From assembly GCF_000287675.1 (NCBI RefSeq), contig NZ_ALJL01000001.1, positions 1-64,000 on the forward strand: a stretch of DNA of 64,000 bases, written 5' to 3'. Under the pieces are notes generated by a model. The model was not told the origin of the DNA, made no database searches, and worked only from the letters and a program-made list of their open reading frames with translations. The translations under genes were made by a program, and so were the position numbers. The stretch comes from Lachnoanaerobaculum sp. ICM7 (GTDB lineage Bacteria; Bacillota; Clostridia; Lachnospirales; Lachnospiraceae). Shown piece after piece: positions 2,182 through 29,856 of this stretch (positions are counted from its first letter, which is position 1; every line of letters starts with the position of its first letter).

Positions 2182-2191
2182 GGAGACATTG

Positions 2192-2866: not shown

Positions 2867-2889
2867 CTTTATAAGGAGTATTATTGTAA

Positions 2890-3122
2890 TGGGGAACAGC
2901 ATTTGATTTTTGTAGAAATGATGGGAATGATCCATATTATGATAAAGATGGATTCTTTAGTAAAGTTGGTGCAATAGGGAAATCTATAGGTCTTGAATGG
3001 GGTGGAGATTGGAAAACGCCGTAGATAAACACCATTTTCAACTACCTGATTGGGGAAGCACTACCAAAGAGTTGAAACAACAATATGGAACACCGGATGA
3101 ATTTGAAAAAATCTGGAATTAA
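2890..3122 (+). pseudogene. Frameshifted C-terminal fragment of an M15-type (VanY/L-Ala-D-Glu) peptidase toxin domain
   Basis: Read from 2890, the frame gives TAFDFCRND, then SKVGAIGKSIGLEWGGDWKT, then hits TAG; shifting by one base at about 3019 continues as VDKHHFQLPDWG to a stop at 3122. The pattern G/T-x-AFDF...GL-WGGDW...D-HHFQ is that of zinc D,L/D,D-peptidases of the M15 (Peptidase_M15_4) family, where the Asp and the final His bind zinc. The N-terminal half and any delivery domain are missing. With the lipoprotein gene 18 bases downstream it looks like a displaced polymorphic-toxin tip beside its immunity gene. Confidence 0.72.
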
Positions 3123-3140
3123 TAAGGGATAGAGATTGGC

Positions 3141-3665: not shown

Positions 3666-3686
3666 GGTGAGAAAAGTTTAACTGAT

Positions 3687-4273: not shown

Positions 4274-4307
4274 AATATTGATACGAGCTACATTGCGGGA
4301 GGTATGT

Positions 4308-6365: not shown

Positions 6366-6375
6366 GGAGACATTT

Positions 6376-7047
6376 ATGATAGGGGTAAAGGGTAAATTAA
6401 AGTCTAGATGGGTTTTATGTTTTATAATATTTTCCTTAGCATTATTGATATATGGAAATCATTTATTTAAGGAAAGAGCTAAAAAACTGGAAGATATGAG
6501 AAAAAAAGAATCATTAGAATTTATGGAAGATGGCTGGAAGAAATACAGAATGATGTTGTATGCCGGTGCAAATATGGAGTATACAGATAGTGAAGGAAAT
6601 ATCAGAATAATAGAAACTGAACCCGCGCTTTTAGATATATATGATGAAGTTATAAAGCCATATATTTTAGGTGATTTACCCACCCTTGGCTCCTTTCAGA
6701 TAACTGAAGGTGAAGAAACATTAGAACTGATAAAAAATTTTAATGATAATATGTTGCATGTAAAGATATGGAGTGCACATAAGAACAGGTATATAACGAT
6801 TGCAGAGAACGAGGGGTTGGAAGAATTTGAGGATATAAATGGTTTTGAAGAACTATGGAAATATATGAATAAACGAAATGACGAAAATATTTTATATATG
6901 AATGAGCTTGATATAGTTGGAAACGACAGAACAGGTCGGTCCGGAAAGTTTATATATGATTATGGAAATGGAGAAAGTAAAGAAATATCAGTGAGTGTGA
7001 TTAGTTTATTTGAATTGTTTAATGACAAGTACAAAGATTGGTCATAA
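6376..7047 (+). CDS. Membrane-anchored immunity-like protein, family B
   Basis: First of four tandem copies behind the DUF4280 effector, starting ten bases after its stop with the same AAGGAGACAT spacer as at 1500. It has 223 residues: basic start, one membrane helix (about 13-30), charged linker, outward domain. The variable block is HVKIWSAHKNRY, unlike the effector's NNREGRY block, and the YILGDLPTLGSF segment is found only here and, as GNLSTLGSF, in the truncated copy at 8422. Position directly after the effector makes a protective role likely. Confidence 0.63.
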   Translation: MIGVKGKLKSRWVLCFIIFSLALLIYGNHLFKERAKKLEDMRKKESLEFMEDGWKKYRMMLYAGANMEYTDSEGNIRIIETEPALLDIYDEVIKPYILGDLPTLGSFQITEGEETLELIKNFNDNMLHVKIWSAHKNRYITIAENEGLEEFEDINGFEELWKYMNKRNDENILYMNELDIVGNDRTGRSGKFIYDYGNGESKEISVSVISLFELFNDKYKDWS

Positions 7048-7057
7048 GGAGAAACTT

Positions 7058-7729
7058 ATGGTTAGAATAAAGAGTAGACTAAAGTTTAGGTGGATTTTAT
7101 ACTTCGTAATATTTTCCCTAGCATTATTAATATATGGAAATCATTTATTTAGGGAAAGAGCTAAAAAACTGGAAGATATGAGAAAAAAAGAAGCATTGGA
7201 ATTTATGGAAGATGGCTGGAAGAAATACAGAATGATGCTGTATGCCGGTGCAAATATGGAGTATACAGATAGTGAAGGAAATATCAGAATAATAGAAACT
7301 GAACCCGTGCTTTTAGATATATATGATGAAGTTGTAAAACCTTATATTTTAGGTAAGATACCCAGCTTAGGCTCCTTTCAAATAACTGAGGGTGAAGAAA
7401 CATCAGAACTGATACAAAATTTTAATGATAATATGAAACATATAAAGATATGGAGTGCACATGAGAATAGATATATAACGATTGCTGAGAATGAGGGGTT
7501 GGAAGAGTTTGAGGATATAAATAGTTTTGAAGAACTGTGGGAGTATATGAATAGGCGAAATGACGAAAATATTTTATATATGAATGAGCTTGATATAGTT
7601 GGATATGACAGAACAGGTCAACCCGGAAAGTTTATATATGATTACGGAAATGGAGAAATTAAAGAAATATCAATTAATATAATAAGTTTATTTGATTTAT
7701 TTAAAGACAAGTATAAAGAATGGTCATAA
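7058..7729 (+). CDS. Membrane-anchored immunity-like protein, family B
   Basis: ATG 7058 (MVRIKSRLKFRW) is chosen because AAGGAG at 7046-7051 overlaps the previous stop and lies six bases upstream; longer in-frame starts would lie inside the previous gene. The 223-residue product has the common single-helix layout and the SAHENRY block. Its last codons and the following spacer recur after the next gene, showing that the repeat unit is about 682 bases including the ribosome site. Confidence 0.62.
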   Translation: MVRIKSRLKFRWILYFVIFSLALLIYGNHLFRERAKKLEDMRKKEALEFMEDGWKKYRMMLYAGANMEYTDSEGNIRIIETEPVLLDIYDEVVKPYILGKIPSLGSFQITEGEETSELIQNFNDNMKHIKIWSAHENRYITIAENEGLEEFEDINSFEELWEYMNRRNDENILYMNELDIVGYDRTGQPGKFIYDYGNGEIKEISINIISLFDLFKDKYKEWS

Positions 7730-7739
7730 GGAGAAGCTT

Positions 7740-8411
7740 ATGGTTAGAATAAAGAGAGGGTTAAAGTTTAGGTGGATTTTATGCTTCGTAATATTTTCCC
7801 TAGCATTATTAATATATGGAAATCATTTATTTAGGGAAAGAGCTAAAAAACTGGAAGATATGAGAAAAAAAGAAGCATTGGAATTTATGGATGATGGCTG
7901 GAAGAAATACAGAATGATGCAGTATGCAGGTGCAAATATGGAGTATACCGATAGTAAAGGAAATATCAAAGTAATAGAAACAGAACCTGTGCTTATAGAT
8001 ATATTTGATGAAGCTATAGACCCTTATATTTTAGGTAAGACACCTTCCCTCGGCTCTTTTCGGATAACTGAGGGAGAAGAAACTTTAGAACTGATACAAA
8101 ACTTCAATGATAATATGTCGCACTTAAAGATATGGAATAATCGTGAGGGCAGATATATGACTATTTCTGAGAATGAGGGATTGGAAGAGTTTAAAGATAT
8201 AAATAGTTTTGAAGAACTGTGGGAATATATGAATAAGCAAAATGATGAAGGAGTTATATATATAAATGAACTTGACATAGTTGGACATGACAGAACAGGT
8301 CGACCCGGAAAGTTTATATATGATTATGGTAATGGAGAGAGTAAAGAAATATCAGAGAATGTGATTATTTTATTTGAATTATTTAAGGACAAGTATAAAG
8401 ATTGGTCATAA
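7740..8411 (+). CDS. Membrane-anchored immunity-like protein, family B (effector-type block)
   Basis: ATG 7740 follows AAGGAG overlapping the stop at 7729. The 223-residue protein carries the block HLKIWNNREGRYMTISENEG, the closest match in the array to the effector at 4308; about 95 bases from 8096 differ from the effector gene at 6050 by only a few changes. It is therefore the best candidate for the cognate partner, or for the latest donor or recipient of gene conversion. Layout: basic start, one membrane helix, outward domain ending in YDYGNGESKE. Confidence 0.63.
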   Translation: MVRIKRGLKFRWILCFVIFSLALLIYGNHLFRERAKKLEDMRKKEALEFMDDGWKKYRMMQYAGANMEYTDSKGNIKVIETEPVLIDIFDEAIDPYILGKTPSLGSFRITEGEETLELIQNFNDNMSHLKIWNNREGRYMTISENEGLEEFKDINSFEELWEYMNKQNDEGVIYINELDIVGHDRTGRPGKFIYDYGNGESKEISENVIILFELFKDKYKDWS

Positions 8412-8421
8412 GGAGAAGCTT

Positions 8422-8751
8422 ATGGTTAGAATAAAGAGTAGATTAAAGTTTAGGTGGATTTTATGTTTCATAATATTTTCCTTAGCATTATTAATATATG
8501 GAAATCACTTATTTAAGCAAAGAGCTAAAAAACTGGAAGATATGAGAAAAAAAGAATCATTAGAATTTATGAAAGATGGCTGGAAGAAATACAGAATGAT
8601 GTTGTATGCCGGTGCAAATATGGAGTATATAGATAGTGAAGGAAATATCAGAATAATAGAAACTGAACCGGTACTGTTGAATATATATGATGAAGTTATA
8701 AAGCCATATATTTTAGGTAATTTATCTACCCTTGGCTCCTTTCAAATATAG
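8422..8751 (+). pseudogene. Truncated family B immunity-like gene
   Basis: ATG 8422 has AAGGAG overlapping the previous stop. The frame follows the family through the membrane helix to YILGNLSTLGSFQI and then ends at TAG 8751, giving 109 residues instead of 223. All of the conserved FNDNM and YDYGNG half is absent. Sequence after 8751 is unrelated, so this is the broken right edge of the array. A membrane-bound stub may still be made. Confidence 0.75.
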
Positions 8752-11502: not shown

Positions 11503-11928
11503 ATGGGAATTAGATTCAGAGTAACCGGTTCAGAAGTAGCGGACTTTGATGAGAGAAGTATTGTAAATGCTGAATTTTTATCAGAGTCACCGAAAGATTC
11601 CAATGCTAAGGCGACAGATTATGGCTTAGGAGTCAAGGTATGGGGACGAGTTTTGTACAATGTCGGAGCTGACAGTGATGACGTATTAAAGCTTGCAAAA
11701 TGGTCTCAAATACCATCTGAAAATGCAGATTGTTACAGAGTGGCAGAGGTTACAGTAGTTTCAGCAGGAGCTGTTGTAAGGAAGTATGTCATTCCAAATG
11801 CTTTTGTTGTAGAGTATTCTGAGAGGGCAGATGATGTGAACGGAACAGGAGAGTTTTACATTCATATCCGTCAAAAGAAGGATAATAATGCGAAAGTGAC
11901 TGTAGAAGGCGGATATGCCGGAGAATAA
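11503..11928 (+). CDS. Hcp-like tube protein, copy 1
   Basis: A 141-residue soluble protein without signal peptide, start fixed by GGAGGT before ATG. The alternating beta pattern, the VIPNAFVVEYSER motif and the C-terminal FYIHIRQKKDN strand recall Hcp/phage tail-tube barrels, in which six subunits make a ring. It lies between the candidate sheath and a second homologous copy. The family name is inferred from size, pattern and neighbours. About 100 untranslated bases separate it from the sheath gene, so it may have extra promoter input to reach tube stoichiometry. Confidence 0.6.
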   Translation: MGIRFRVTGSEVADFDERSIVNAEFLSESPKDSNAKATDYGLGVKVWGRVLYNVGADSDDVLKLAKWSQIPSENADCYRVAEVTVVSAGAVVRKYVIPNAFVVEYSERADDVNGTGEFYIHIRQKKDNNAKVTVEGGYAGE

Positions 11929-11947: not shown

Positions 11948-12376
11948 ATGGCATATAAAGTAAAAATTGAGGGTAATGAAAGTTTTGAACTGGCAAAGGA
12001 ATGCGTAAACAGTGTGTTTTTATCTACTGATATTCCGATTGATTCAAATGCACGTACCAATGATGCCGGTGCTACCATGGAAATCACAGGAAAGATTCTG
12101 ACTGCGGTAGATGGAGATCCTTTTGATTCTACAAAAAACATGGCACTTTGGTCAATGGTTCCTGCACAGAGCAAAGATTGCTACAGAAAGGTTACTGTAG
12201 AGCAGATTGTAGCAGGAATTACAAAAAGAAAATATGTATTTCCTAATGCATTTGTAGTTGCTTATACAGAGAGGCATGGAGATGAGGAAGGTGTTGGAAA
12301 CTTTACTCTTGTAATAAAACAGAAAAAAGATAAAATGGCAGGTCTGGTAGTGGAAGGCGGTTATGCAGCCGAATAA
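11948..12376 (+). CDS. Hcp-like tube protein, copy 2
   Basis: A 142-residue paralog of the preceding protein: both share the layout SVFLS.D-SNA near residue 25-40, K-x-ALWSMVP versus K-x-AKWSQIP near 80, FPNAFVVAYTER near 105 and end in VEGGYA-E. Two different tube subunits in tandem suggest a tube of mixed composition, a tail-completion or initiator ring, or an effector-loaded variant. A strong terminator follows at 12401, separating the sheath-tube unit from the FHA operon. Confidence 0.6.
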   Translation: MAYKVKIEGNESFELAKECVNSVFLSTDIPIDSNARTNDAGATMEITGKILTAVDGDPFDSTKNMALWSMVPAQSKDCYRKVTVEQIVAGITKRKYVFPNAFVVAYTERHGDEEGVGNFTLVIKQKKDKMAGLVVEGGYAAE

Positions 12377-12400: not shown

Positions 12401-12437
12401 AGGCTGTATGACTTGTCATGCAGCCTTGTTTTTTTAT
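12401..12437 (+). terminator. Rho-independent terminator after the tube genes
   Basis: AGGCTGTATGAC (12401-12412) pairs with GTCATGCAGCCT (12415-12426), one G-T wobble, two-base loop, followed by TGTTTTTTT. It should end or reduce read-through from the sheath-tube unit into the FHA and baseplate genes. Confidence 0.85.
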
Positions 12438-12540: not shown

Positions 12541-13068
12541 ATGAATAAAAAATGTTTAATTGATATTTTAGGTATAACTATGGCCATATTGTGCGCCATA
12601 ATTACAGGGATCTTTGGAAGGGCATGGAATGGCGGATATATATTTTATATGTTTTCTTTTTTAGTTTCAGGTTCTTTGATCTATTTTTTGATAAAGGACT
12701 TTTCTTTAAAAAGAGAAAAGACACAAGATACATTTTTGTCAGAACTTGTACTTTTAAGCGAGGAAAATACAGTTATAAGAAGTTGGAGTATATTAGGGAA
12801 GAATTCGGTTGTAATAGGAAAGAAAAATAGTGAGGAAGATATAGATATAGACCTGTGCGATACTGCTTTTGGTGGAACGGTAAGTGATATTCATGCAGTA
12901 CTTAATTATGTGGAGGGGCTCTGGTATATAGAAGATATGCAGAGTAAAAACGGAACACAGATTAAAGGTTTTTTAGAGGATAAACTTTATAATATAAGAG
13001 ACGGACAAAGTAGACTTGTAAAAAACGACTATATTTTTATTGGACTGAATAAATTACAGATAAGGTAA
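12541..13068 (+). CDS. Membrane-anchored FHA domain protein
   Basis: A 175-residue protein with two hydrophobic helices (about residues 8-25 and 31-50) and then a cytoplasmic FHA domain from about 75: SVVIGKKNSEEDI, SDIHAVLNY, and the strongly conserved DMQSKNGTQIKG turn (consensus S-x-x-H and NG). FHA domains bind phosphothreonine; T6SS uses one (Fha) to start assembly. Here it would recruit a phosphorylated component to the membrane. The first usual Gly-Arg is replaced by GKK, so phospho-binding needs testing. It starts an operon that continues six bases later. Confidence 0.8.
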   Translation: MNKKCLIDILGITMAILCAIITGIFGRAWNGGYIFYMFSFLVSGSLIYFLIKDFSLKREKTQDTFLSELVLLSEENTVIRSWSILGKNSVVIGKKNSEEDIDIDLCDTAFGGTVSDIHAVLNYVEGLWYIEDMQSKNGTQIKGFLEDKLYNIRDGQSRLVKNDYIFIGLNKLQIR

Positions 13069-13073
13069 AAGTT

Positions 13074-13565
13074 ATGGGGAATTTAATACGATGCAAAAAT
13101 GGACATATGTTTTCAAAGAGAAGATATGGAAATATATGTCCATACTGTAACATGGATATGACTGAAAGAAAAGAAATTGAGGAATCTTTTGATGACGAGG
13201 AACTTGAAGAAAGCTTAATCAGAATAAAAACAAAGCCTGTGTGTGCATGGTTGGTATGCATTAAAGGACCGAGGTATGGAAAGGATTATAGAGTAGTATT
13301 TGGGAAAAACTATATAGGAAGAACAGATGCTATGGATATTCAAATTATAGGTGATAATGCAATAAAACAGGAGAATCATGCAATTTTATCATTTGATGAA
13401 AGAGATATGGAAGGCACCTTGATTTGTACAGAAGGAGGAGGAATTACATACCTAAATGGTAAGGCTGTGTATACACCTCAGGTTTTGGAAACATATGATG
13501 TAATTACCATGGGGGAGAGTGAGTTTTTATATATTGCCTTGTGTGGTAAGCAGTTTTCATGGTAG
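13074..13565 (+). CDS. Zinc-ribbon plus FHA domain protein
   Basis: A 163-residue soluble protein. Residues 7-26 hold C-x3-H-x-FSKRRYGN-x-CPYC, a likely zinc site. The FHA domain spans about 60-160: CAWLVCIKGPRYGKDY, NYIGRTDAMDIQI, ENHAILSF, YLNGK. Its GR turn and NH pair keep the usual phosphothreonine-binding pattern. The same zinc motif followed by CAWLVCI occurs in the double-FHA protein at 21789, so the two share one ancestor. It probably acts as a phospho-dependent adaptor in the injection machine. Confidence 0.75.
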   Translation: MGNLIRCKNGHMFSKRRYGNICPYCNMDMTERKEIEESFDDEELEESLIRIKTKPVCAWLVCIKGPRYGKDYRVVFGKNYIGRTDAMDIQIIGDNAIKQENHAILSFDERDMEGTLICTEGGGITYLNGKAVYTPQVLETYDVITMGESEFLYIALCGKQFSW

Positions 13566-13594: not shown

Positions 13595-14410
13595 ATGGGA
13601 ACTGCTTTTTGGGCAGATGTGATCTGCATTATAATTGCTTTTGGAATTTTAATCGTGAGAATATGTATAAAAATTACGGAAGAACAAAAACGGATATTTG
13701 ATGCAGAGGCTGTGCTTGATATAGGAAAAAGACAGATTCAGGCAAATGCATATGGACTTAAAAGAATGAATACAGGTATGATGGCGATTCTTACAGCAGG
13801 AGAAGGAAGAGATTATGTCGGAAAAGTTGCAGCACTGACAACCGTCAGGACTTTTACTAAACTATATAATCAATATGACAGTACACAAAGTTCGGATAAT
13901 TTCTTTGAAAAGGCATTTAAATTAGCTAATACAAATGTTTTAAATACACTGGAGACGGGAAAAGCATATGCAGGTTGTCTTATACTTAATAGAAATATAC
14001 TGAAGTATGGTATTGTCGGACATATGAATGTTTATGTATTTCGTGGTAAGGAGCTGATACTTCTTAGTAAGGGACAGATTATGGAGGAACTTATAAAAGA
14101 AAAAGTAAATAAGGGACTTTTAAGTAAAGAGGCGGCACTTAGAATTTCAGATATAAACAGGGCATATAACTTTGTAGGAAGAGATGATTATATGTCTCCT
14201 CTTGTAAGTGGTAGCGAGATAAAATTAAAGAAAAAAGATATAGTTGTTATGATAACTGAAAGTGTACAAAACAATATTTCAGTTAGGGAAATGGAAGAAG
14301 TTCTTGTAAAAAAGAACTCATGTAAAGAAAAAGCAAGAGAGATTATAGAGGTTATCAAGAATAAAGATAAAGAAACGGCTAATCTTGGACTTATACTTAT
14401 TGGAATGTAG
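13595..14410 (+). CDS. Membrane-anchored PP2C-like protein, probably catalytically dead
   Basis: A 271-residue protein with one N-terminal membrane helix (about 4-23) and a cytoplasmic domain whose order of motifs recalls PP2C phosphatases: GMMAILTAGEGRDYVGK (usual -ADGMGG-), YGIVGHMNVYVFRGKEL (usual GDSRAYLYR), LLSKGQ and a final ANLGLILIG. The metal-binding Asp of the DG motif and the closing Asp-Asn are absent, so I infer a pseudo-phosphatase that binds rather than dephosphorylates. It lies ten bases before a second PP2C-like gene and may be its partner. Confidence 0.6.
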   Translation: MGTAFWADVICIIIAFGILIVRICIKITEEQKRIFDAEAVLDIGKRQIQANAYGLKRMNTGMMAILTAGEGRDYVGKVAALTTVRTFTKLYNQYDSTQSSDNFFEKAFKLANTNVLNTLETGKAYAGCLILNRNILKYGIVGHMNVYVFRGKELILLSKGQIMEELIKEKVNKGLLSKEAALRISDINRAYNFVGRDDYMSPLVSGSEIKLKKKDIVVMITESVQNNISVREMEEVLVKKNSCKEKAREIIEVIKNKDKETANLGLILIGM

Positions 14411-14419: not shown

Positions 14420-16258
14420 ATGCGTAAGCAAAACAGCAGATTTAATACAAACTTTATTTCAGAAGAAGGCAGTGCACTCAAAAACAGTGATTATTTTGCT
14501 TATGCAGAGCTTGATAATTTTGCCTGTTATGTATTGGCAGACGGTATCGAAGATATAGCAGATACCGAGTCGGCAAAGGAAGCGGTTGAAAGTATAATTG
14601 CAAAATTTCAGGAAAAACCGTCAATGTCAAAGGCAAGTATACATAAGTATCTAAAATATGCCAATGAAGTACTTTTAAAGGCTGAAAAGTACATGAGACT
14701 AAAGGCATCAATAGTGGTTGCAGTAACCGATTATGAGAATTTGCGTTTAGCATACGCCGGAAACGCAAGAATAAGATTATATAGAAATAATAAAGTTTTT
14801 TATAAAAGTACTGATACATCTTTAAGCAGTGAGATGGTGTCAAATGAACTGCTTAGTGAAGATGCCTTATCAAGACATGAACAAAGAAGCAATTTATATT
14901 CATACTTGGGCCAGAAGGATTTTTCTCCCGTAATATCAGGAAAAATAAAACTTTTTGATACAGATATTTTAATTCTCTATACAAAGGGCATTTGGGAGAA
15001 TGTGTCCGAGGGAGAAATTGATAAGATTTTTGAAAACAGTGGAAAAGATCCGAGCGAATGTCTTGGAGAAGTGGAAACCGCTCTACTCGATAAAAACAGA
15101 AAATATATTGACAATTATACAATTGCAGGGATTTATATTGATAAAGTATTTATTGAGTCGGACACGAAGAAGAAAAAAAGAAGAAGGCTTATTTTAATCG
15201 GTTCGATTGTTGCTGTAGTTTTAATATTAGCTACAGTTATTGCTATATATTTTTATACTCGATATAGAAAAGAGTTAAAAGAAGATATGGATACACATTA
15301 TGATAAGATGCTTAAATTTATTGAAATGGAAAATTATAAAAAAGCGGATACAGAATGTGAAGAGTCAATAAAGAAGGCTGAAGGTCTTAGAGATAAGGAT
15401 ATGAAAGAGTTGCTTTATCACTATGAACAAGTTATTGAAGGAATACTTGAGGCAGATGAAAAATACAATACAGAAAGTTACAGTGAAGCAAAATCTTTAT
15501 ATAAACTTGTATTGGATGAAATTCCATATGCAGATAATGCCGGGCTTTCTTATGTAAAAGGAAAACTTGATTTTATTTCGGGATATGAAAGCGTAAATCT
15601 GAGTTTGGATAACGGAGATATACTTTTTGACTCTGAAATATACGAAAGGGCAAGAGAACGATACAATGACGCAAAAAATGAGTCAAGAAAGATAGGTTAT
15701 GAAGAGGGAAAGTTAAAGGCGGAGGCCAAACTCTTAGCAGTAGATCAAGCTATTGCAAAAGATCAGGAAGGAAAACAGGCTGAAGCAGACAAACAGTCAA
15801 AAAACTTTCAATCGGCAAATGATATGTTAAGTGCAGGAGACGAGGCATTAAGTAAAGGAGATTTTTTGTCAGCAAGAGCAAATTATAATACAGCAAAAGA
15901 TTTGTTGGAAAAATCAGGTGAAAGCGCCGGGCTTGCTGAAATAGAGGAGAAAATCTCTACAGCAGATAAGAAAATCAGTGAAAGTGAAGAGGAAAAAAAT
16001 ACTGCAAGCGGCTATGCGATTACAGGAGATGAAGCCTTTTTAAGGGGTGATTTTGAAACAGCCAGAGAAAATTATGAGTATGCAAGAAGACTTTATGTAA
16101 AGCTTAATGATGAGATAAATACAATACAGATGGATAAAAAGCTTAATGATGTACAAAAAAGGATTGACGAAATAAAGCAGAAAGAAGCAGTACCTTCTAC
16201 AGCAACTAATGAATCCACAGTACAGCAAACAAGCGAGTCGGAGTCTTCGTCAAACTGA
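14420..16258 (+). CDS. PP2C-like domain / membrane helix / long outer helical domain protein
   Basis: A 612-residue protein in three parts. Residues 1-250 are PP2C-like: CYVLADGIED, LAYAGNARIRLYRN, KGIWENVSEGE and a final IDNYTIAGIYID that keeps the DG and DN metal motifs, although GD is GN. One membrane helix follows a Lys/Arg patch (about 254-276). The last 330 residues are helical, acidic, with three TPR-like repeats built on GDEAL-KGDFLSARANY, and a Ser/Thr/Gln tail; topology puts them outside. It could link cytoplasmic phospho-signalling to the cell envelope, in the role that TssL/TssM anchors play in T6SS. That role is inference. Confidence 0.65.
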   Translation: MRKQNSRFNTNFISEEGSALKNSDYFAYAELDNFACYVLADGIEDIADTESAKEAVESIIAKFQEKPSMSKASIHKYLKYANEVLLKAEKYMRLKASIVVAVTDYENLRLAYAGNARIRLYRNNKVFYKSTDTSLSSEMVSNELLSEDALSRHEQRSNLYSYLGQKDFSPVISGKIKLFDTDILILYTKGIWENVSEGEIDKIFENSGKDPSECLGEVETALLDKNRKYIDNYTIAGIYIDKVFIESDTKKKKRRRLILIGSIVAVVLILATVIAIYFYTRYRKELKEDMDTHYDKMLKFIEMENYKKADTECEESIKKAEGLRDKDMKELLYHYEQVIEGILEADEKYNTESYSEAKSLYKLVLDEIPYADNAGLSYVKGKLDFISGYESVNLSLDNGDILFDSEIYERARERYNDAKNESRKIGYEEGKLKAEAKLLAVDQAIAKDQEGKQAEADKQSKNFQSANDMLSAGDEALSKGDFLSARANYNTAKDLLEKSGESAGLAEIEEKISTADKKISESEEEKNTASGYAITGDEAFLRGDFETARENYEYARRLYVKLNDEINTIQMDKKLNDVQKRIDEIKQKEAVPSTATNESTVQQTSESESSSN

Positions 16259-16280
16259 TATTGGAGGAGTTTATAAGGGT

Positions 16281-17564
16281 ATGGGATATTTAGATGAATT
16301 TGACGTAAAAAAATACGTTAAGGACAGACTTTCCGAGATAAAAGATAAAGATGAATATGCTCTTGCAAAAAGTGTTTTATACGAAGGCCTATATAAGATG
16401 AGTGAAGTATTTGAAGAAAGATATAAGGCTTTGCACAATAAGGTTTACGAGGAGCTTGAGCGAAAAGAGGAAAGCTATGAAATCGCGATACTTTTACTTT
16501 CAAAAAATGAAAATAAATTTTTAAGGATGTTTTTTCCTATATCCGATTTAGATGTAATAGAGGATAAAGGATCCGATATTAAAAGAGATTCCAAGGAGGA
16601 CAAAAAATCAATAAAAACTATTTACCTTGACGCAACCGACAGTATGTGCAAGGCTTTTTTACAAGAAAATATAAGATTAAGTTTTACAAATAACGGTGAA
16701 AAACACACAATTTTAGTACAACCGAAAAGAGCTCTTCGGTACAGAAAAGAATTAGGCAAACTTTACGAAACATTTTCTTATAACGGACTTAGGTGGAATA
16801 CCGTTAATACTGTGTACCTGGATCGTTTTTTTGATATAGACCTTTCAGAGATTCCCGAAAGTGCGATAGATGTTGAAGTAGTATATGGGAAATATGCTGA
16901 TATGATAAAAGAAGAACTTTATCCTATATGGAACATAGAAAGAAATGTATTTAAGAGCAGCACATTTTTAAGTCCAAGTAAAGACGGATTATACTATGAA
17001 CGTGAAATGGTTAAGCAAAGTAATAAGGAGATTATCTTAAGACTGGTACTAAAGACGGAAGGTATGGTAGGAATAAGACATGAAGAAGAAAAGATTATAG
17101 TAAAATCCTATGAAGAAAGCTATTCCGATTTAGAGGGCTATAATATCTTTGATATAAGATATACAAAGGAAGAATTGCCGATTGGATTAATAAGCAACAA
17201 AAGAAAAGAGGGAATGCTTGGACGACTTTTAAATAAAAATGGAGAAGAAATACACACTGAGGCGGAAATAGAAAGGATTATTGATGAACTTAATATTGAA
17301 GATTATGTATCACTTAAATCCTGCGAAAGAGTACCGGTAAGAAGTGAAGTTTTAGATGAAAGTATAATACTTCCTGATATGAACAATTTTTCAAGTAGAG
17401 AATTCTTGATAAAAGATGGGTGTCCCGGACTTGTTTTAAGGTTTTTAAGAACCGGTGACAGCAACCTTTGTGAAGCAATGGTAAGATATGCCGTTTCGCA
17501 ACTACAGATAAGCTTCGATGAATATATCTGTATAGGAGTTTTAGAAAACAGTTACAGTCTATAA
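16281..17564 (+). CDS. Unrecognised protein, candidate baseplate component
   Basis: ATG 16281 (MGYLDEFDVKKYV) is preferred; the longer frame from 16209 would overlap the previous gene by 50 bases. The 427-residue product has no signal or membrane helix. Residues 1-80 are helical, 130-370 predominantly beta, with YLDRFFDIDLSEIPESAIDVEVVYG and a repeat-poor C-terminus. I know no family for it. Its place between PP2C and Hsp70-like genes in an injection-system operon suggests a baseplate or platform subunit. Confidence 0.45.
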   Translation: MGYLDEFDVKKYVKDRLSEIKDKDEYALAKSVLYEGLYKMSEVFEERYKALHNKVYEELERKEESYEIAILLLSKNENKFLRMFFPISDLDVIEDKGSDIKRDSKEDKKSIKTIYLDATDSMCKAFLQENIRLSFTNNGEKHTILVQPKRALRYRKELGKLYETFSYNGLRWNTVNTVYLDRFFDIDLSEIPESAIDVEVVYGKYADMIKEELYPIWNIERNVFKSSTFLSPSKDGLYYEREMVKQSNKEIILRLVLKTEGMVGIRHEEEKIIVKSYEESYSDLEGYNIFDIRYTKEELPIGLISNKRKEGMLGRLLNKNGEEIHTEAEIERIIDELNIEDYVSLKSCERVPVRSEVLDESIILPDMNNFSSREFLIKDGCPGLVLRFLRTGDSNLCEAMVRYAVSQLQISFDEYICIGVLENSYSL

Positions 17565-18369: not shown

Positions 18370-20973
18370 ATGGGCTATAAGCTTAACAGGAATATAACTA
18401 AAGAAGAGCAGGCGGCGACATATACAAGAAGCGAGCTTGAGTTAATGAGTGAATACAGACTGAGGGAAGTTTGCCGTAGGGAACATATAGTAAAGGGACT
18501 TGATAAGAACCTGACAAATGAAGAGCTTATAGAGATGATTCTTTCATATTGCCAAAGCTTTGAAGATGAATTGATAAGAAAAGAGATTCCGGGTGGAAGA
18601 GAGCGTATAGAGCAAATCCTTGATAAGTTCAGTATAAGAGAGCCTGAGAAAGAAGAACTTCGAATATCCGGGAAAATCAGTATTTATGAAGGTGCTGCGT
18701 TAAACTTTTTAGATGATTATAAAATTGAGTACAAAGATAAATTCTTAAATACAAATGCCCTGATTGTAAGTGGGGACAAAAAGGTGTGTGCCGTATTTAA
18801 TGTTGTATCAATGGGAGATAAAAAGGATTCTTTATATTTGGTAAAAGAGGCTGATCTTTCATGCATTGTTACCGAAACAAAGGATTACAGCCTTTATCTT
18901 ATGGAAAGGGATGCTTCAGAGTTTATATATCATACATATATAGGAGATAAAGAAGCAAATGCATCACTTCTAAAATATAAAGCCTATAAACTTCCTATAA
19001 TGGACTTTGAAGTACTTCCACTTATAGAGTTACACATGCCGATAGCTGTAGATTTGGGTTCTACCAATACAACTGTTGCTATGTATGCTGACAGCAGCTA
19101 TTACAGGCAGATAAACACTGCGAAGCAAAGAGGCATAAAGGAGAATACCATCTGTCATACTGTTTTTTTCGAATCTGTCGGTGGAGAAAACTTTATGGAG
19201 ATGATGATCCCCACAGTTGTGGCAGTAACAGAGGTTAAAGAAGATAGTATAGAGTACGCTTTTGGAAGAAAAGCTTTGTGGTATGCCAATCTAAGCTATA
19301 CTGATAAAGGTTTTTCAGTCTTTTATGATATTAAAAGATGGGTAGGAGATTTTGAGAGGAAGGAAGAACTCACTGACTCAAAGGGAAGGTACAGATATGT
19401 ACAAAGAATAGAGATTATAGGGGCATACCTAAGGCATGTATTGGACATTACCAGAGACAGTTTTAAATGCTGTATAAAAGAGGTGTATATTACAGTACCC
19501 GTAAAGCAAAAGCATGTGTATGAGCAAATGCTCGGCATTTTGTCAGAAATGCTTTCGTTAGAAATAAAGGTGACTTTAGATGAGAGCACAGCAGTACTTT
19601 ATAGTTTTATAAGTAAGATGAGGGAGAAAAATCGCTTAAAAGACGGTGAAAGCTATAAGGCACTGATAATGGACTGTGGAGGAGGAACCACGGATCTTAG
19701 TGCATGTAAGTTTAAGGTACATGCAAAGGGTGATATACAGACCTATATCATGGAAAACAGCTACAAAAACGGTAATACGGATTTTGGGGGAAACAATATT
19801 ACCTACAGAATAATGCAACTTCTAAAACTGAAAATTGTATCCAAACTTCTTAAACTTGAGAAAGATCTTGGAAGTGAAGTGATTGAGGAGCTGCCGGGTG
19901 ATCCTTACAGATATATTGATGAAGAAAGTGTGGAAAGCTTCTATGAGGGCTTGCAGAAAGCTTATGAAAGTGTGGAAGAAATTTTACCTACTGCGTTTAA
20001 ACATTTTGAAACGTACGGCAAGGAAGGGTATTACAGAGTAAGAAATAATTACTTCTTTTTATTTACTCTTGCAGATGAAATAAAACAAGGACTTTTTTCA
20101 GGAAATGACATAGTTATAGAAGTACCTGAGGATAAAAATATAAAATCAGGACTTCTAAGGCTTGAGGCGGATCGTTATAAGCTTTCTATATTTAAAGAAG
20201 ATAAACTTGATATATTGGAAGAAATGCCAAAGATAAATTTTAACCGTTATGAAGTTGAAAAACTTATTGCCGGTGAAATATATGCGGTTATGAAAGCATT
20301 TATGGAAAGATTGTATACAAACGGAGAACTTTATAACTTTGACATGATAAGACTTACAGGGCAGTCCTGCAAGATCGGTTTGTTTAGGGATGCGCTAAAA
20401 GAATTTGTACCCGGCAATATGATGCAAAGCGGTGGGAGCGTTAAAAAGGAAGAGTTAAAACTTGCCTGTGTGGACGGACTTATGAGGTATCTTTATGATA
20501 AAAGAACCGGATATGCGGGATTTGATATAAGAGATGAGGAGGCTCTGATTCCTTATAAAATAAAAGCATTGTCATACTCAGGCAGACAAGAGGTCCTTAT
20601 TGACGGTTTTGAAAGCAATAAGATGACCGGAAGTTTACTTAGAAGCCTTGAAGATATATTGCTTAGAATGTATTTGTATGACGCTTCTGAAAACGTACGA
20701 TTCGAGTATCTTTTCCATTTCAAAAAAGATGAAGCAAGAGAGACTGACAGAATGGAGCTTGCAGGAAGATATAGCGGATATATTAAGCAGGAAGACACGG
20801 ATGATATACAAAATGGAGAACTGAAGATATTTGCCTTTGTAGACTATAAAAAATGGGGATTTCAGATAGTACCGGTATATAGGTTGAAAGATATATTATA
20901 TGCAGGAGAGGGGCAGGAGTATAAGTTTGAAACCGACGAATGGATTTGTGATTTCTTTGATGGAGAGCACTAA
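18370..20973 (+). CDS. Hsp70/actin-fold ATPase with N-terminal SAP-like segment
   Basis: An 867-residue soluble protein. Residues 15-60 resemble a SAP motif (LMSEYRLREVCRREHI and LTNEELIEMIL). The ATPase core begins at about 225: IAVDLGSTNTTVAMY is the phosphate-1 loop, ALIMDCGGGTTDLSACK at about 435 the phosphate-2 loop, and MIRLTGQSCKIGLFRDAL at about 660 the adenosine motif. The peptide-binding half of DnaK is replaced by a unique C-terminal region. It is thus a diverged Hsp70 relative and the only clear ATPase of the locus. It may assemble or recycle the machine in place of ClpV, which is absent here; that is inference. Confidence 0.75.
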   Translation: MGYKLNRNITKEEQAATYTRSELELMSEYRLREVCRREHIVKGLDKNLTNEELIEMILSYCQSFEDELIRKEIPGGRERIEQILDKFSIREPEKEELRISGKISIYEGAALNFLDDYKIEYKDKFLNTNALIVSGDKKVCAVFNVVSMGDKKDSLYLVKEADLSCIVTETKDYSLYLMERDASEFIYHTYIGDKEANASLLKYKAYKLPIMDFEVLPLIELHMPIAVDLGSTNTTVAMYADSSYYRQINTAKQRGIKENTICHTVFFESVGGENFMEMMIPTVVAVTEVKEDSIEYAFGRKALWYANLSYTDKGFSVFYDIKRWVGDFERKEELTDSKGRYRYVQRIEIIGAYLRHVLDITRDSFKCCIKEVYITVPVKQKHVYEQMLGILSEMLSLEIKVTLDESTAVLYSFISKMREKNRLKDGESYKALIMDCGGGTTDLSACKFKVHAKGDIQTYIMENSYKNGNTDFGGNNITYRIMQLLKLKIVSKLLKLEKDLGSEVIEELPGDPYRYIDEESVESFYEGLQKAYESVEEILPTAFKHFETYGKEGYYRVRNNYFFLFTLADEIKQGLFSGNDIVIEVPEDKNIKSGLLRLEADRYKLSIFKEDKLDILEEMPKINFNRYEVEKLIAGEIYAVMKAFMERLYTNGELYNFDMIRLTGQSCKIGLFRDALKEFVPGNMMQSGGSVKKEELKLACVDGLMRYLYDKRTGYAGFDIRDEEALIPYKIKALSYSGRQEVLIDGFESNKMTGSLLRSLEDILLRMYLYDASENVRFEYLFHFKKDEARETDRMELAGRYSGYIKQEDTDDIQNGELKIFAFVDYKKWGFQIVPVYRLKDILYAGEGQEYKFETDEWICDFFDGEH

Positions 20974-22879: not shown

Positions 22880-24367
22880 ATGGGATCATCTGTAAAAATA
22901 AATAACCGTGTAGATATGAGCGGAAAAAAGGTGTCATTTAATGCTAAGGAAATAGAGAATAAAACACCAAATAAAAGAGCCGGTAACAGAAAATTCAACA
23001 TGGAAAAAATGGCAAAAAACGCATTAGGCTCGATTCCATCCCGAGTTTTAATAAATGGAAATTTGGAACAAAGAGTAGAAATGGATTTTTTGAAAATGGG
23101 ACAAGGCTCTATTCCTACAGTAGCAGGAAACCTGATTAAAACAGAGTTAAATAAATCAGGAGAAAAGGCTATGGGAATAAAAGATATAAATTATGTGCTG
23201 TATCATGATACAACAGGAGTGCGTACAGTGGCAAAAGCAACTGCTAGGAATGGAAATAGTTTATCAAGTAATATAAAGAAGGCAGAGAGTAACGGGTGGG
23301 TTAAAACCGAGATGGGCTGGATGTACAAAGAAAATGGAAAACTTGTAACAGGCTGGAAGCAGATAGACGGCAAGTGGTATTACTTTGAGTCTATCGGAGT
23401 TATGCAAACAGGCTGGAAACAGGTATCCGGAAAATGGTATTACTTGCATACAGACGGAGCCATGAGAACAAATTGGAAACAGATAGGTGGCAAGTGGTAC
23501 TATTTCCATACAGACGGAGCTATGAGAACAGACTGGAAACAGATAGATGGCAAGTGGTACTATTTCCATACAGACGGAGCTATGAGAACAGGTTGGAAAC
23601 AGATAGGTGATAAATGGTACTATTTATATGAAGACGGTCATATGGCAAAGTCTGAAAAAATACAAGGGAAAGACGGGAAGGTTTATGATATTGATGAAAA
23701 TGGGGTTTGCAGCAATAATTCTAACTCAGCAGAGGATGAGTTGAGTAGAAAGATAGATGATTTTATAAATATTGCACTTAATGAAAGAGTTGAAAATACC
23801 GGGTTTGTTGAGAATCAAGTAAAGAAAAAGAAAAGAAATAAAAATGGAGAGATAGTAGAAGTAATAGAAGGGGATAATATAAACAGATATGGAAAATGGT
23901 ATGGTGATAATGGCGTGCCATGGTGTGCAATATATGTTTCGTGGTGTGCTAATGAGGCAGGAATATTAAATAATAGAGGTATTGCAGGAGATGCAGGAAA
24001 ACCGGTTCCGAAATTTGAATCTTGTCAAACCGGAAAAAGTTTATATGAAGAAGCCCAAAAATATCATAATGTAGATAGTGGTTATGAACCTAAAAAGGGA
24101 GATTTATTTATACATTTAAATAGAAATAAAAAAGGCGAATTAGATGGGACGGGGCATACAGGAATTGTTATAGCTTATAATAGTGCAGATAAAACTGTAT
24201 ATACGGTTGAAGGAAATTCTAATGATAGAGTATCTGTGAAAAAAACACATATTTATTATACTACGAAGGGACATAAATACTTTGATGGATTTTGTAGTAA
24301 CGGAGGAACTGATTATGGTGTAGCTCCGGATAGACCGTTATTGAGAGGAGGGGAAAGTGATAGATAA
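22880..24367 (+). CDS. Signal-less CHAP cell-wall hydrolase with wall-binding repeats, predicted injected effector
   Basis: A 495-residue protein; GGGAGG precedes ATG 22880. It starts MGSSVKINNRVDMSG and has no signal peptide or membrane helix. Residues about 1-135 are unrecognised and could be the loading domain. Residues 140-260 contain five or six GW-KQI-GKWYYF wall-binding repeats. Residues 320-480 form a CHAP domain: catalytic Cys in PWCAIYVSWCA and His in GTGHTGIVI, which cut peptide bonds or amide bonds of peptidoglycan. A lysin with no export signal inside an injection-system operon, followed by exported proteins, fits an effector against other Gram-positive cells. It may alternatively open the producer's own wall. 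Confidence 0.7.
   Translation: MGSSVKINNRVDMSGKKVSFNAKEIENKTPNKRAGNRKFNMEKMAKNALGSIPSRVLINGNLEQRVEMDFLKMGQGSIPTVAGNLIKTELNKSGEKAMGIKDINYVLYHDTTGVRTVAKATARNGNSLSSNIKKAESNGWVKTEMGWMYKENGKLVTGWKQIDGKWYYFESIGVMQTGWKQVSGKWYYLHTDGAMRTNWKQIGGKWYYFHTDGAMRTDWKQIDGKWYYFHTDGAMRTGWKQIGDKWYYLYEDGHMAKSEKIQGKDGKVYDIDENGVCSNNSNSAEDELSRKIDDFINIALNERVENTGFVENQVKKKKRNKNGEIVEVIEGDNINRYGKWYGDNGVPWCAIYVSWCANEAGILNNRGIAGDAGKPVPKFESCQTGKSLYEEAQKYHNVDSGYEPKKGDLFIHLNRNKKGELDGTGHTGIVIAYNSADKTVYTVEGNSNDRVSVKKTHIYYTTKGHKYFDGFCSNGGTDYGVAPDRPLLRGGESDR
23342..23640 (+). repeat. Five 60-bp tandem repeats encoding wall-binding modules
   Basis: The sequence repeats with a period of exactly 60 bases, for example TGGAAACAGATAG-TGGCAAG followed by TGGTACTATTTCCATACAGA. 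The central copies are almost identical at DNA level, indicating recent expansion. Each codes for one 20-residue GW-x-YYF repeat. Confidence 0.9.
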
Positions 24368-26423: not shown

Positions 26424-27782
26424 ATGAGGGCGGAACTTTTAGAAATATACGGTTTTGATTTTATTGATATACAGGAATTTTATTCAGAGCTTAAGCCCAA
26501 TAAACATGGGAAGGCATTTATTGGAGGTACTATAAGAGGGGATAAAAAAGAAGAATATTTATCATCCGGAGGAAAGGTGACACAAATAATTGCTAAAACA
26601 TATGAGGGTAATAGTATAGTGCTGTTTTGTGGAATTATCACTTCCTGTAATATAAAAAGTAACGGAGATGTTCACTATATGACTCTGGGCTTGATGACAC
26701 AAAGTGTACTTATGGATGGAAAAGAGCATATAAGAACATTTCAAAATGCAGGAGTTAGCTACAGAGATATTATTGATATTATCATAGAAGGTTATAATAA
26801 CAGCGCATTTATAATGACTTCAGGTGATGATAAGAAAACTCAGGGGTTTATGTGCCAGTATAAAGAAACTGATTGGGAGTATCTGAAAAGGTTGGCATTT
26901 TCTGCTAATACAGTGATATACCCTGACTATAGTGTAGAGGGCGTTAAGTTTTTTGTGGGACTTCCATGTAGACAGGAAAAGCTGTTGAGATCGGAATATT
27001 ATGAGCTTGGAGTTGACAGTGGTGATGAGTCTTTACTTAATTCAGACAAGGCATATTATAAGGTTGCTGTAAGAGAACATTATGAAATAGGGGAAAGATT
27101 AACATTTTTTGGCGAAACACAGGCTGTTGTAGCAAGAGTCAGCAGACTGGAACATAGAGAAGTGATTAATGAGTACATATTAATGAAAGAAAGTGATGTA
27201 AAGACTAAGGCGTATCAGAATGAAAAACTTATAGGTGCGGCATTATTTGCAAAGGTGTGTCAAGTCGAAAATGAACTTGTAAGAGTGAGTATAGATGATG
27301 ATGAAAACGATTCTGATGATAAGGCGTTCCTAAACTACGCTACAGTATATTCTTCACCTGAAGGAGGGAGTTGGTATTGTATGCCTGAAGTCGGAGATAG
27401 GGTAATAGTGAAATTTCCTAATGCAAATGAACAAAATGTATATGTACAAAATGCTTTTCATGTAGGCAGTGCAGGCGGTCGTGACAATCCTGAAATCAAA
27501 TTTTTTAAGAATAAAGAGGGAAAGGAAATCAGATTAAGTCCTGAAAGTGTACTTATTACAGATAATAACGGTTCAAGTATAGAACTTAAAGATGATAAAG
27601 GAATAAGTATAAAAAGTAGCGGGATGATATCAATAGCTGCAAAAACTGAAGTGTTGATAGAAAGCAGTAATGCAGGTATAAGTTTAATATCGCCGACATC
27701 AGTACAAATAACGCAAAACGGAACTCAGATAGAAATGAATGACGGGATAACCCATCAGGGAAGCAAAGTGTACCTGGGGTAA
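26424..27782 (+). CDS. vgrG: VgrG/gpD-like spike protein
   Basis: A 452-residue protein; GGAGGTG precedes ATG 26424. The N-terminal 240 residues look like the gpD/phage late-control fold (FMCQYKETDWEYLKRLAFSANTVIYPDY is typical). Then comes an OB-fold part with SPEGGSWYCMPEVGDRVIVKFP and a glycine-and-polar repeat tail (SIELKDDKGISIKSSGMISI, VQITQNGTQIEMNDG) expected to form the beta-helical needle. It should trimerise at the tip of the tube and carry the DUF4280 protein encoded 34 bases downstream. Confidence 0.85.
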   Translation: MRAELLEIYGFDFIDIQEFYSELKPNKHGKAFIGGTIRGDKKEEYLSSGGKVTQIIAKTYEGNSIVLFCGIITSCNIKSNGDVHYMTLGLMTQSVLMDGKEHIRTFQNAGVSYRDIIDIIIEGYNNSAFIMTSGDDKKTQGFMCQYKETDWEYLKRLAFSANTVIYPDYSVEGVKFFVGLPCRQEKLLRSEYYELGVDSGDESLLNSDKAYYKVAVREHYEIGERLTFFGETQAVVARVSRLEHREVINEYILMKESDVKTKAYQNEKLIGAALFAKVCQVENELVRVSIDDDENDSDDKAFLNYATVYSSPEGGSWYCMPEVGDRVIVKFPNANEQNVYVQNAFHVGSAGGRDNPEIKFFKNKEGKEIRLSPESVLITDNNGSSIELKDDKGISIKSSGMISIAAKTEVLIESSNAGISLISPTSVQITQNGTQIEMNDGITHQGSKVYLG

Positions 27783-27816
27783 AATACTAATTAGCTATAT
27801 TGCATAGGGGGTGTAT

Positions 27817-29856
27817 ATGGCAGAAAAGAATCAGGCTGAATGGATATATGAAGTATTAGGTAAGAAAAAAGGCGCTTTTGGGGCATCTATAAGGGAGCTT
27901 ACAGATGCAGAAGAGAAAAAGATCAAAGATAAAATGTTGCAGTATTGGAAAGAACATAATGATGAAAGCACAGAATTTCTTGTTAACGGTGCAATACTTT
28001 GTTGTAGTCGCGGAAGTGATTATTCTACACTGAATAGTGCTGATCATGGTGTCTATACCGACAGCAGTGAAACCGGAGCACTTGCAAATACAGATGATAA
28101 AAAGTTTGACGGATTTGTTGCATGTTCAAAATGGAATGATGAACCGCTTGTAAGCAAACATATTTGCCGTTTTAAGCTTGGAGAATGGAGAAATGTTAGA
28201 AAGAGTGTCACCATAAACGGTAAGTATGCCTTAGATACAAACTCATATTTGCCATGCAAACATGGAGGAATAATATCACCTGTAACATCAGGGCAGGAAT
28301 ATACACTAAGTAAGTCCTATAATAAATATCCTAAATTTTTAAATGATGACGGCACTGTGGATGAATTAATTGTAAAAAAGCTGTTGCTAAGAAATATTCA
28401 TCAGATGAAAGAGAATGAGATAGATGCCCTGATTAAGTTGGGAATATATTTATGTGTATGTGAAGATGTAAATATAATAAAAAAGATTATTTGTTGTGGA
28501 TATATAACTACAATGGCTAATAAAGATATATCTGCTTTACCGCTCTATCAACATACACTTCTTGATAATTTTATTTATGTATCCGGGTGGGTAACAACAT
28601 ATGCTAAATTTTGTAGTTTTACCAATAAGCTATATACATCATCAAGATGCTCATGGGAGAAACTTAATGATATATGCCAAAAAATAAAAGAATTTGTTTT
28701 GAATATAAAAATGGCATCAGAAGAGCTACCGCAAAATGAAGAAGAGCAAAGAAGAATAAGAAGACAGTTTTTAAATGTTAAATTGTTAGATACAATATTA
28801 TTAGCTGGGAATCTTTATAATAGGGCATCTCATGAGTACTTGATAGAAAAACTCGAAGTTAAAGAGGATATCAACTTTATAGTATATACATTAAAATATT
28901 ATGATGGAGAGCTTGATTATGTTCATTCAGGAGCATTCTCAGGGGAAACAACAAGAAAAGGTATAAATATTTCATTACAGACGGTTTATGTATTTTCAAG
29001 AGGATCTGGAGATATTTTCAGTAGTAATAAGGCTTTTTCAGAAATACTATCAGAGAGTATTGGAGGAGAAACATCGAAGGGAGCTGCGGCACTTTCATGT
29101 GGAACAACAGCAATAGCTTATCTATTGTTGATACCGGCAGTGGCTTCCGCTCCATTTGCAATCCCTCTAGGTTTTATATGTACAACTTCAGGATTGGTAG
29201 GTGGAGGGCTTGATTCCATCAGAGCTAATAATGAATCTAAAAAAAGCAAAGAGTTATACTTAGATTCGGTAGATGAAAGTTTATTTATGTTAAGGATGGA
29301 GGATTACTTATCATTATATTTTACATTCTCTCTTAGAGTTAGTAGTTTACTTGAGCATAATGAAAGTATTTGGAATGATTACGAGAAAACTCACCCATCT
29401 GTTAGCGGACAAAAAGCGAGAAATTCAGGACACCTTACAAAAGATGAACATAGAATAGTGAATGATTCATCATACAAAATACTAGGTAAAGGTCATATAT
29501 ATAGTATTGATTATTTTTCCAGTTATTTAACTATGAAAAAAATTAAAAATTTTAATGAAAATATGAAACATATTAAACTTTGGAACTACGAAGAAAAAAA
29601 ATATAAATCTATAGCTGAAAATGAAAGAATGGAAGAATTTGCTGAAATAGAAAGTATTGAAGAAATGTTTAGCTATATGAAGAAAAAAAATCAAGTAGGT
29701 ATTGATTATATCAATGAATTAAATGTGGTAGGGTATGATAGAACAAATCAGCCCACAAAAATTATATATGATTATGGAAATGGAGAAGAGAAGATTTTGG
29801 CAGAAAACGATGCTATTGGAATAATGGAATTGTTTAAAGATAACTCTTTGAGGTAG
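27817..29856 (+). CDS. DUF4280 PAAR-like tip effector with a second C-terminal type
   Basis: ATG 27817 is chosen because AGGGGG stands five bases upstream; GTG 27811 lies inside that site. The 679-residue protein shares a near-identical first 200 residues, including the CCSRGSDYSTL and YLPCKHGGIISPVTSGQ motifs, with the protein at 4308. The middle part differs strongly. A hydrophobic stretch (about 426-465, AYLLLIPAVASAPFAIPLGF) is conserved in character. The last 120 residues copy the following gene: both end in YDYGNGEEKILAE and IMELFK-NSLR. Tip-borne membrane-active effector is the working model. Confidence 0.7.
   Translation: MAEKNQAEWIYEVLGKKKGAFGASIRELTDAEEKKIKDKMLQYWKEHNDESTEFLVNGAILCCSRGSDYSTLNSADHGVYTDSSETGALANTDDKKFDGFVACSKWNDEPLVSKHICRFKLGEWRNVRKSVTINGKYALDTNSYLPCKHGGIISPVTSGQEYTLSKSYNKYPKFLNDDGTVDELIVKKLLLRNIHQMKENEIDALIKLGIYLCVCEDVNIIKKIICCGYITTMANKDISALPLYQHTLLDNFIYVSGWVTTYAKFCSFTNKLYTSSRCSWEKLNDICQKIKEFVLNIKMASEELPQNEEEQRRIRRQFLNVKLLDTILLAGNLYNRASHEYLIEKLEVKEDINFIVYTLKYYDGELDYVHSGAFSGETTRKGINISLQTVYVFSRGSGDIFSSNKAFSEILSESIGGETSKGAAALSCGTTAIAYLLLIPAVASAPFAIPLGFICTTSGLVGGGLDSIRANNESKKSKELYLDSVDESLFMLRMEDYLSLYFTFSLRVSSLLEHNESIWNDYEKTHPSVSGQKARNSGHLTKDEHRIVNDSSYKILGKGHIYSIDYFSSYLTMKKIKNFNENMKHIKLWNYEEKKYKSIAENERMEEFAEIESIEEMFSYMKKKNQVGIDYINELNVVGYDRTNQPTKIIYDYGNGEEKILAENDAIGIMELFKDNSLR

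Follow-up and report, generated by a model that had tools for sequence, protein, structure and literature searches.

A probable pseudophosphatase with a TPR-like outer rod as candidate membrane scaffold of a T6SS-like machine in monoderm Bacillota

The window analysed here, a 64,000-nucleotide stretch of Lachnoanaerobaculum sp. ICM7 (contig NZ_ALJL01000001.1 of assembly GCF_000287675.1, positions 1 to 64,000), contains an open reading frame (ORF) at 14420-16258, the 612-residue product of which we refer to as T. We propose, with a probability of about 0.5, that T serves in monoderm Bacillota as the bitopic scaffold by which a type VI secretion system (T6SS)-like machine is tethered and perhaps also gated. 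The initial annotation of this ORF had described a membrane-spanning PP2C-like protein with a tetratricopeptide repeat (TPR)-like outer domain and had suggested that it could anchor such a machine; the observation is confirmed, and the interpretation is supported in part, the phosphatase being very probably inactive. The genome encodes a second copy of T on contig C21 (81% identical, with the same neighbours), and the nearest named records come from L. sp. OBRC5-5 (98%), L. gingivalis (95%), Lachnospiraceae oral taxon 107 (95% and 81%) and L. saburreum (82%).

Profile and structure comparisons both point to a PP2C fold for the inner domain of T. The NCBIfam Stp1/IreP model matches residues 21-215 with an expect value (E) of 7e-20, at 71.5 bits and thus far under the model cut-off of 230. 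No Pfam PP2C model matched the window's T protein at E<=0.05, and Pfam PP2C_2 was found in two of nine aligned T members. In the AlphaFold2 (AF2) model the mean per-residue confidence (pLDDT) is 81.4 and the predicted template modelling score (pTM) is 0.42, the latter meaning that the relative placement of the domains is unsure. When residues 1-243 were superimposed on tPphA with VIA-align, 212 residues matched with a Z of 23.9 and a root-mean-square deviation (rmsd) of 2.5, which bears out the PP2C-like assignment; the T6SS phosphatase PppA gave a Z of 21.8.

The catalytic apparatus of this domain is degraded. Motif counts were made on 41 aligned T relatives and on four further relatives read singly; since the 41 include near-identical congeners, they are not 41 independent cases. 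The T profile was trained on 31 rows including L063, an intact 251-residue PP2C that is not a T and was excluded from the counts, and four rows of the motif table carry a dash at two positions, their starts having been trimmed. In the window's T, Lys189 stands where PP2C enzymes have the metal-binding Asp of TDG, a residue whose loss abolishes catalysis; this Asp is absent from all 41 relatives (18 Lys, 15 Arg, two each of Glu, Pro and Ser, one Cys and one Ala) as well as from the four read singly (Ser, Ser, Ser and Ala). The phosphate-coordinating Arg of motif 1 is Ala19 in the window's T and remains an Arg in only one of 37 readable relatives, the GD motif has become GN in 39/41, and the DN Asp is retained in 22/41. 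By comparison, PP2Cs from related genomes retain the TDG Asp, GD, the DN Asp and the phosphate-binding Arg without exception (10/10); these were taken from ten of the 12 loci L034-L045 (L039 was left out for a broken frame and L044 was unused) and are assumed to be housekeeping enzymes, although one, L034, adjoins an FHAzn relative.

Counting against a dead enzyme, D24, D41 and D231 are retained in the window's T, and the first two of these positions are kept almost throughout the readable relatives (NxD in 37/37, ADG in 36/37). Together with the fold, these residues would favour T being the active membrane-bound Ser/Thr phosphatase of the system. We consider this very improbable, given the universal replacement of the TDG Asp, mostly by Lys or Arg, the lost Arg position, and the presence in other lineages of a plausible enzyme in the neighbouring protein U. 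On sequence grounds, then, the inner domain is very probably a pseudophosphatase, and with neither the TDG Asp nor the Arg that binds phosphate in place, the phosphatase assay of residues 1-250 suggested in the initial annotation is expected to be negative.

A single transmembrane (TM) segment follows the PP2C domain in the window's T, with a Lys/Arg run before it, and one such segment is found in 41/41 relatives. The net charge before the segment is higher than that after it in 40 of them, with one tie, and this bias predicts an N-in/C-out orientation, which would put the rod outside the cell and leave the PP2C domain in the cytoplasm. Among the conserved core proteins, TM-like segments occur in T, U and FHAtm only, and with the domains of U and FHAtm taken as inside, T alone has a large predicted outer part. 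The premise that this cell has no outer membrane also held: Omp85 matches numbered zero in its genome, and the same search was positive in 7/14 control genomes. The order of phosphatase fold, helix and helical rod is thus as first described, the outer placement of the rod being a prediction.

The outer part of T, some 330 residues, is all helical in the AF2 model (helices 306-590; block pLDDT 74-96), with long helices connecting five TPR-like units. The mean pairwise BLOSUM62 score among the five units is 11.0; none of 400 register-optimised shuffles (0/400) was as good, the best of them not exceeding 6.3. Relatives carry an average of 4.46 copies of the A-x3-[YF]-x2-A signature, versus 0.40 in shuffles, and its strict form is present in three of the five units of the window's T. 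The best-conserved outer residues include A309, A357/Y361, A411/Y415/A418 and A485/Y489/A492, which we take to be TPR positions 20, 24 and 27. The GDEAL-KGDF repeats that had drawn attention to this region are two copies, GDEALSKGDF (473-482) and GDEAFLRGDF (536-545), each part of one of the five units. Profile support varies: Pfam TPR_2 matched two of nine T members (best E 4.4e-7). Two points speak against the TPR assignment, namely that some rod helices in the AF2 model exceed canonical TPR length and that the window's T alone reached E 0.02 with TPR_11, under the cut-off. Of two relatives in other genomes, one (G813) has clear TPRs by eye and the other (G1106, L123) is an open frame of 957 residues with ten strict TPR-like signatures, which indicates that rod length varies strongly.

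T belongs to a conserved four-gene cassette, FHAtm-FHAzn-U-T, encoding two FHA proteins, the PP2C-like protein U and T. Directly upstream of T, U and FHAzn are each found in 40 of 41 loci and FHAtm in 39, one locus (L013) lying on a short contig that begins after FHAtm. In the window's U (row L001u) all five checked PP2C positions are changed (to N, A, H, E and A), the Asp residues of ADG, TDG and DN being lost. The ADG and TDG Asp are missing from all six Lachnoanaerobaculum and oral taxon 107 loci and the DN Asp from three of the six; in the relatives as a whole, the Asp set is intact in 20/40. FHAzn shows a similar picture: IGR and the Ser of ISRRNH are retained in many lineages, and the Ser has become Lys in the same six Lachnoanaerobaculum/oral taxon 107 loci. 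Where FHAzn was set beside U, R and S are both retained in 23 of 40 loci. The phosphothreonine-binding positions of FHAtm vary more than those of FHAzn. In the window, then, both U and FHAzn lack their key residues, so that neither half of the phospho-switch looks functional, and T stays.

The key residues of U and FHAzn are both intact in 19 and both lost in 16 of the 40 loci, with five discordant (4 and 1), where L046 and L047, in which U is split or cut, were scored as not intact. On the sheath tree this corresponds to five changes in U and four in FHAzn. The kinase side of such a switch was also sought: no kinase match was found on the window's contig, and elsewhere in the genome contigs C17 and C15 each encode a clear kinase, with a weak match under the cut-off on C21.

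These observations bear on a second reading, in which T is mainly a sensor or checkpoint: the rod would detect contact or the state of the wall, the pseudophosphatase would signal to U, phosphorylation read by the FHA protein would change and firing would be licensed. The Ppk/Ppp/Fha pathway of the T6SS provides a parallel. The near-constant position of U directly upstream of T and the lineages in which the residues of U and FHAzn are intact fit this reading, and in the available part of their paper the authors who characterised CisA propose a sensor role for its outer domain (PMC12237407). The persistence of T in lineages, this genus among them, whose U and FHAzn no longer have their key residues, and the lack of a kinase match on the window's contig argue against it, and we regard it as rather unlikely to be the main function of T. 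The sensor and anchor readings can nevertheless be combined.

The distribution of T follows that of the 723-residue protein encoded upstream of the cassette, the sheath candidate. In 397 genomes of the family, a strong T match (E<1e-60) occurred in 18 of the 20 with the sheath candidate and in none of the 377 without it, at most three candidates having been scored per genome; 154 further family genomes gave weaker matches only (best 3e-17), which we took for ordinary PP2Cs. In other families, T was found in all 15 genomes with a close sheath (6 + 9). The two family genomes with the sheath candidate and no T are G016 and G068, the latter with a distant sheath (27% identity). Three loci at first counted as T-less (L096, L099 and L104) were dropped from that class, since T was found elsewhere in their genomes: in G813 on C14, about 20 kb from the sheath and with the match in pieces, in G1106 on C3, about 16 kb from the sheath, and in G251 in another locus on C3. 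L104 looks decayed, only about 70 residues of its Hsp70-like gene giving a match. In G1144 and G1078, T and the sheath are on different contigs. This leaves only G068, G1016, G1142 and G016 without a detected T.

The genes around T follow a recurrent order: sheath candidate, tube gene or genes, FHAtm, FHAzn, U, T and core genes. Variants place the Hsp70-like gene ahead of the 16209-type gene (L052, L057, L059 and L062), the Hsp70-like and 20900-type genes ahead of the sheath candidate (L095), or a tube gene ahead of the sheath candidate (L080). The tube proteins are weakly Hcp-like, with a TssD/Hcp match in 9/18 members (best E 0.0011) and a weak PDB match to Hcp1 (E 0.002). The 723-residue protein is a sheath candidate on synteny and size, and because it matches no sheath profile, the term 'contractile' is based on synteny together with the presence of VgrG- and PAAR-like genes and of weakly Hcp-like tubes. 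Its sole PDB matches were to NS1 of parvovirus kind (E 0.0017-0.0029, about 40 residues) and were taken as chance. The genome itself had no Phage_sheath_1 and no VipB (TssC) match, TssB not having been searched for, and no match to the IcmF-related PF06761, for which an E. coli control was positive, TssJ and TssL not having been searched for.

Several findings weigh against T as the scaffold of a contractile machine. The sheath candidate was not recognised as a sheath by PDB phmmer and profile searches, by Pfam and NCBIfam models on 22 members, by phage tblastn, or by Pfam on three distant members; hhalign gave a probability below 1% against seven of the 15 fetched phage-type sheath loci, and the AF2 model of the protein has a pLDDT of 32.6, though the protein may be a very diverged sheath. 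In three distant genomes (G068, G1016 and G1142), homologs of the sheath, the tube and VgrG are present and T was not found. The distant loci L100, L101 and L103, the sheaths of which are 25-27% identical to that of the window, had no FHA/PP2C/T cassette in the 20 kb read, FHA having been sought within those 20-kb stretches only. The three distant systems without T place T outside the widest core, which does not need it, and tie the cassette to one large branch of the system. G016 has a close sheath and no T match; this genome is 87% complete and its sheath contig ends just past FHAzn. In one locus (L048, genome G111) T is followed by core genes, and the stretch read contains neither U nor FHA, tube or sheath genes; G111 also bears a full locus (L049). 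U and T are about 7 kb apart in G1106. The coupled loss of key residues in U and FHAzn is not significant once relatedness is considered (independent pairs: 1.0 same, 0.1 opposite, 2.9 no difference; L046 was set intact by hand, L047 was treated as unknown and L013 had no sheath row). Finally, the topology of T is a prediction from hydropathy and charge. The proposed anchoring role finds support in the tracking of the sheath-candidate gene by T and in a large predicted outer part that T alone possesses, and is weakened by the position of T outside the widest core; anchor is the best-supported role for T.

Other features of the cluster were observed alongside. A terminator-like stem of 11 pairs followed by a T-rich stretch lies at 12401-12426, between the second tube gene and FHAtm; read-through at this position would yield much sheath and tube and little FHA-U-T. 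A promoter scan gave no clear excess (71 found versus 62.5 expected, standard deviation 6.8). The Hsp70/actin-fold-like protein (18370-20973) is kept with the core, and relatives of it occur in the distant loci as well. Tandem paralogous ORFs of about 220 residues with an N-terminal hydrophobic stretch (1510-8751 and 29864-31211) adjoin DUF4280 proteins, and an FN[DE]NM segment is common to these ORFs and the DUF4280 C-termini; they are perhaps an immunity or orphan-tip array. The cluster also encodes a CHAP protein with choline-binding repeats (22880-24367), a candidate wall hydrolase or effector.

This last gene suggests another role for T, as an organiser of the wall: the rod would recruit a hydrolase such as the CHAP/choline-binding protein and so open a path, rather than hold the machine. 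TPR arrays are protein-binding rods, and the CHAP gene lies within the cluster, both of which are compatible with such recruitment. A CHAP relative was, however, found in one of the 32 loci searched (L005; 0/7 and 0/14 in two sets), many stretches ending before the corresponding place, and the neighbours of T are FHA and U genes in 40/41 loci. We therefore judge a wall-organising role to be improbable.

Table 1. Features of T, its cassette and the surrounding machine genes in the window
Feature	Coordinates	Strand	Basis or remark
T, pseudophosphatase-TM-TPR protein (probable)	14420..16258	+	ATG start, 612 aa; ORF coincides exactly with the annotated interval
PP2C-fold cytoplasmic domain (predicted), residues 1-245	14420..15154	+	NCBIfam match, AF2 model, VIA-align
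Lys189 codon, replacing metal-binding Asp of TDG motif	14984..14986	+	alignment
Single TM segment, residues 253-282	15176..15265	+	hydropathy
Predicted extracytoplasmic helical rod, residues 286-590	15275..16189	+	AF2 model, charge bias
TPR-like unit 1, residues 290-323	15287..15388	+	repeat scoring
TPR-like unit 2, residues 338-371	15431..15532	+	repeat scoring
TPR-like unit 3, residues 392-425	15593..15694	+	repeat scoring
TPR-like unit 4, residues 466-499	15815..15916	+	repeat scoring
TPR-like unit 5, residues 529-562	16004..16105	+	repeat scoring
U, PP2C-like protein, N-terminal TM	13595..14410	+	profile match, alignment
FHAzn, Zn-ribbon-like + FHA protein	13074..13565	+	profile match, alignment
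FHAtm, FHA protein with two N-terminal TM segments	12541..13068	+	profile match, alignment
Sheath candidate, 723 aa	9230..11401	+	synteny and size only
Hcp-like tube protein 1	11503..11928	+	weak matches
Hcp-like tube protein 2	11948..12376	+	weak matches
Conserved core protein, baseplate candidate by position only, overlaps T 3' end	16218..17564	+	
Conserved core protein, 230 aa	17636..18328	+	
Hsp70/actin-fold-like core protein, 867 aa	18370..20973	+	weak DnaK matches
Conserved core protein, 289 aa	20900..21769	+	
VgrG-like hub/spike	26424..27782	+	Phage_GPD, Phage_base_V over cut-off
DUF4280 (PAAR-like) protein	27811..29856	+	DUF4280 over cut-off

As a scaffold, T could work as follows. The inactive PP2C domain would serve as a protein-binding platform for the FHA proteins and U and, through these, for the baseplate; the single helix would cross the membrane; and the outer TPR-like rod would reach into or across the wall and fix the site of firing. 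In lineages with intact catalytic residues in U and phosphothreonine-binding residues in FHAzn, the platform might in addition be phospho-gated, and in this genus the switch seems to have been lost, leaving T as structure. Contact of T with FHA proteins or baseplate, a role in assembly or firing, and reach across the wall are what we infer from the arrangement of domains and genes. Several Bacillota families share this conserved set of genes, which includes a candidate for the membrane dock. If T is that dock, one can test what holds a contractile machine in place when there is no outer membrane, and by what means the machine gets through a thick wall.

With respect to known systems, T shares the PP2C fold with PppA, which has FHA partners in the same kind of system, the T6SS threonine-phosphorylation pathway, and is a separate soluble enzyme. 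T differs from it in lacking the TDG Asp and in being predicted to span the membrane. U is the closer counterpart of PppA. Among the matches listed in a search of the open-access literature, from which preprints and most subscription papers fall outside, no T locus or secretion-machine pseudophosphatase was recognised, and the accessible portions of work on DUF4280/Phage_GPD gene sets in Firmicutes describe no sheath/tube/FHA/PP2C locus or membrane component.

The nearest working parallel to T is YukC/EssB, the hub of the type VIIb secretion system (T7SSb), which according to the available sections of PMC9600267 has a cytoplasmic pseudo-enzyme domain, one TM segment and an all-helical extracellular domain. 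The same sections report copurification of this pseudokinase with the FHA region of the YukB ATPase, a binding that the authors take to be phosphorylation-independent; for T, the link to FHA proteins seen here is gene adjacency. TraF of a Gram-positive type IV secretion system (T4SS) follows the same pseudo-enzyme-TM-helical plan, as far as the consulted text of PMC13037476 goes. In both of these proteins the pseudo-enzyme has a kinase fold, whereas T has a PP2C fold; moreover, the rod of T is a TPR-like array, unlike that of YukC/EssB, and its machine is of the T6SS kind rather than a T7SS or T4SS.

Two further proteins act, or may act, at the membrane of contractile systems in cells lacking an outer membrane. 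CisA of the Streptomyces contractile injection system is likewise a bitopic N-in/C-out adaptor and is needed for contraction and function, as stated in the available part of PMC12237407. It differs in that its N-terminus is largely unstructured and its C-terminal domain solute-binding-like, where T is modelled with an ordered PP2C fold and helices only outside, and that part of the paper mentions no FHA/PP2C cassette. The haloarchaeal T6SS protein Hbor_38620 is a putative membrane anchor of a cell-tethered contractile system; as described in the accessible text of PMC11566945, it has six predicted TM helices and a cytoplasmic domain of about 150 residues, and its authors see no complex outside the membrane.

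T would function in the manner of YukC/EssB or CisA without being a member of either family, nor does it belong with Hbor_38620. A broader proposal, to which we give somewhat less than even odds, is that the FHA-FHA-phosphatase-T set provides monoderm Bacillota with the envelope module for a cell-tethered, T6SS-like contractile machine, in which a dead PP2C domain (45/45 relatives) would act as the cytoplasmic dock and a TPR rod, its length varying from about five to about ten units, would span or grip the wall. T would then add a third kind to the pseudo-enzyme-TM-rod hubs, built on a phosphatase fold in contrast to the kinase fold of the T7SSb and a T4SS, and, if this is true, secretion machines recruit dead signalling enzymes, be they kinases or phosphatases, for the same scaffold job.
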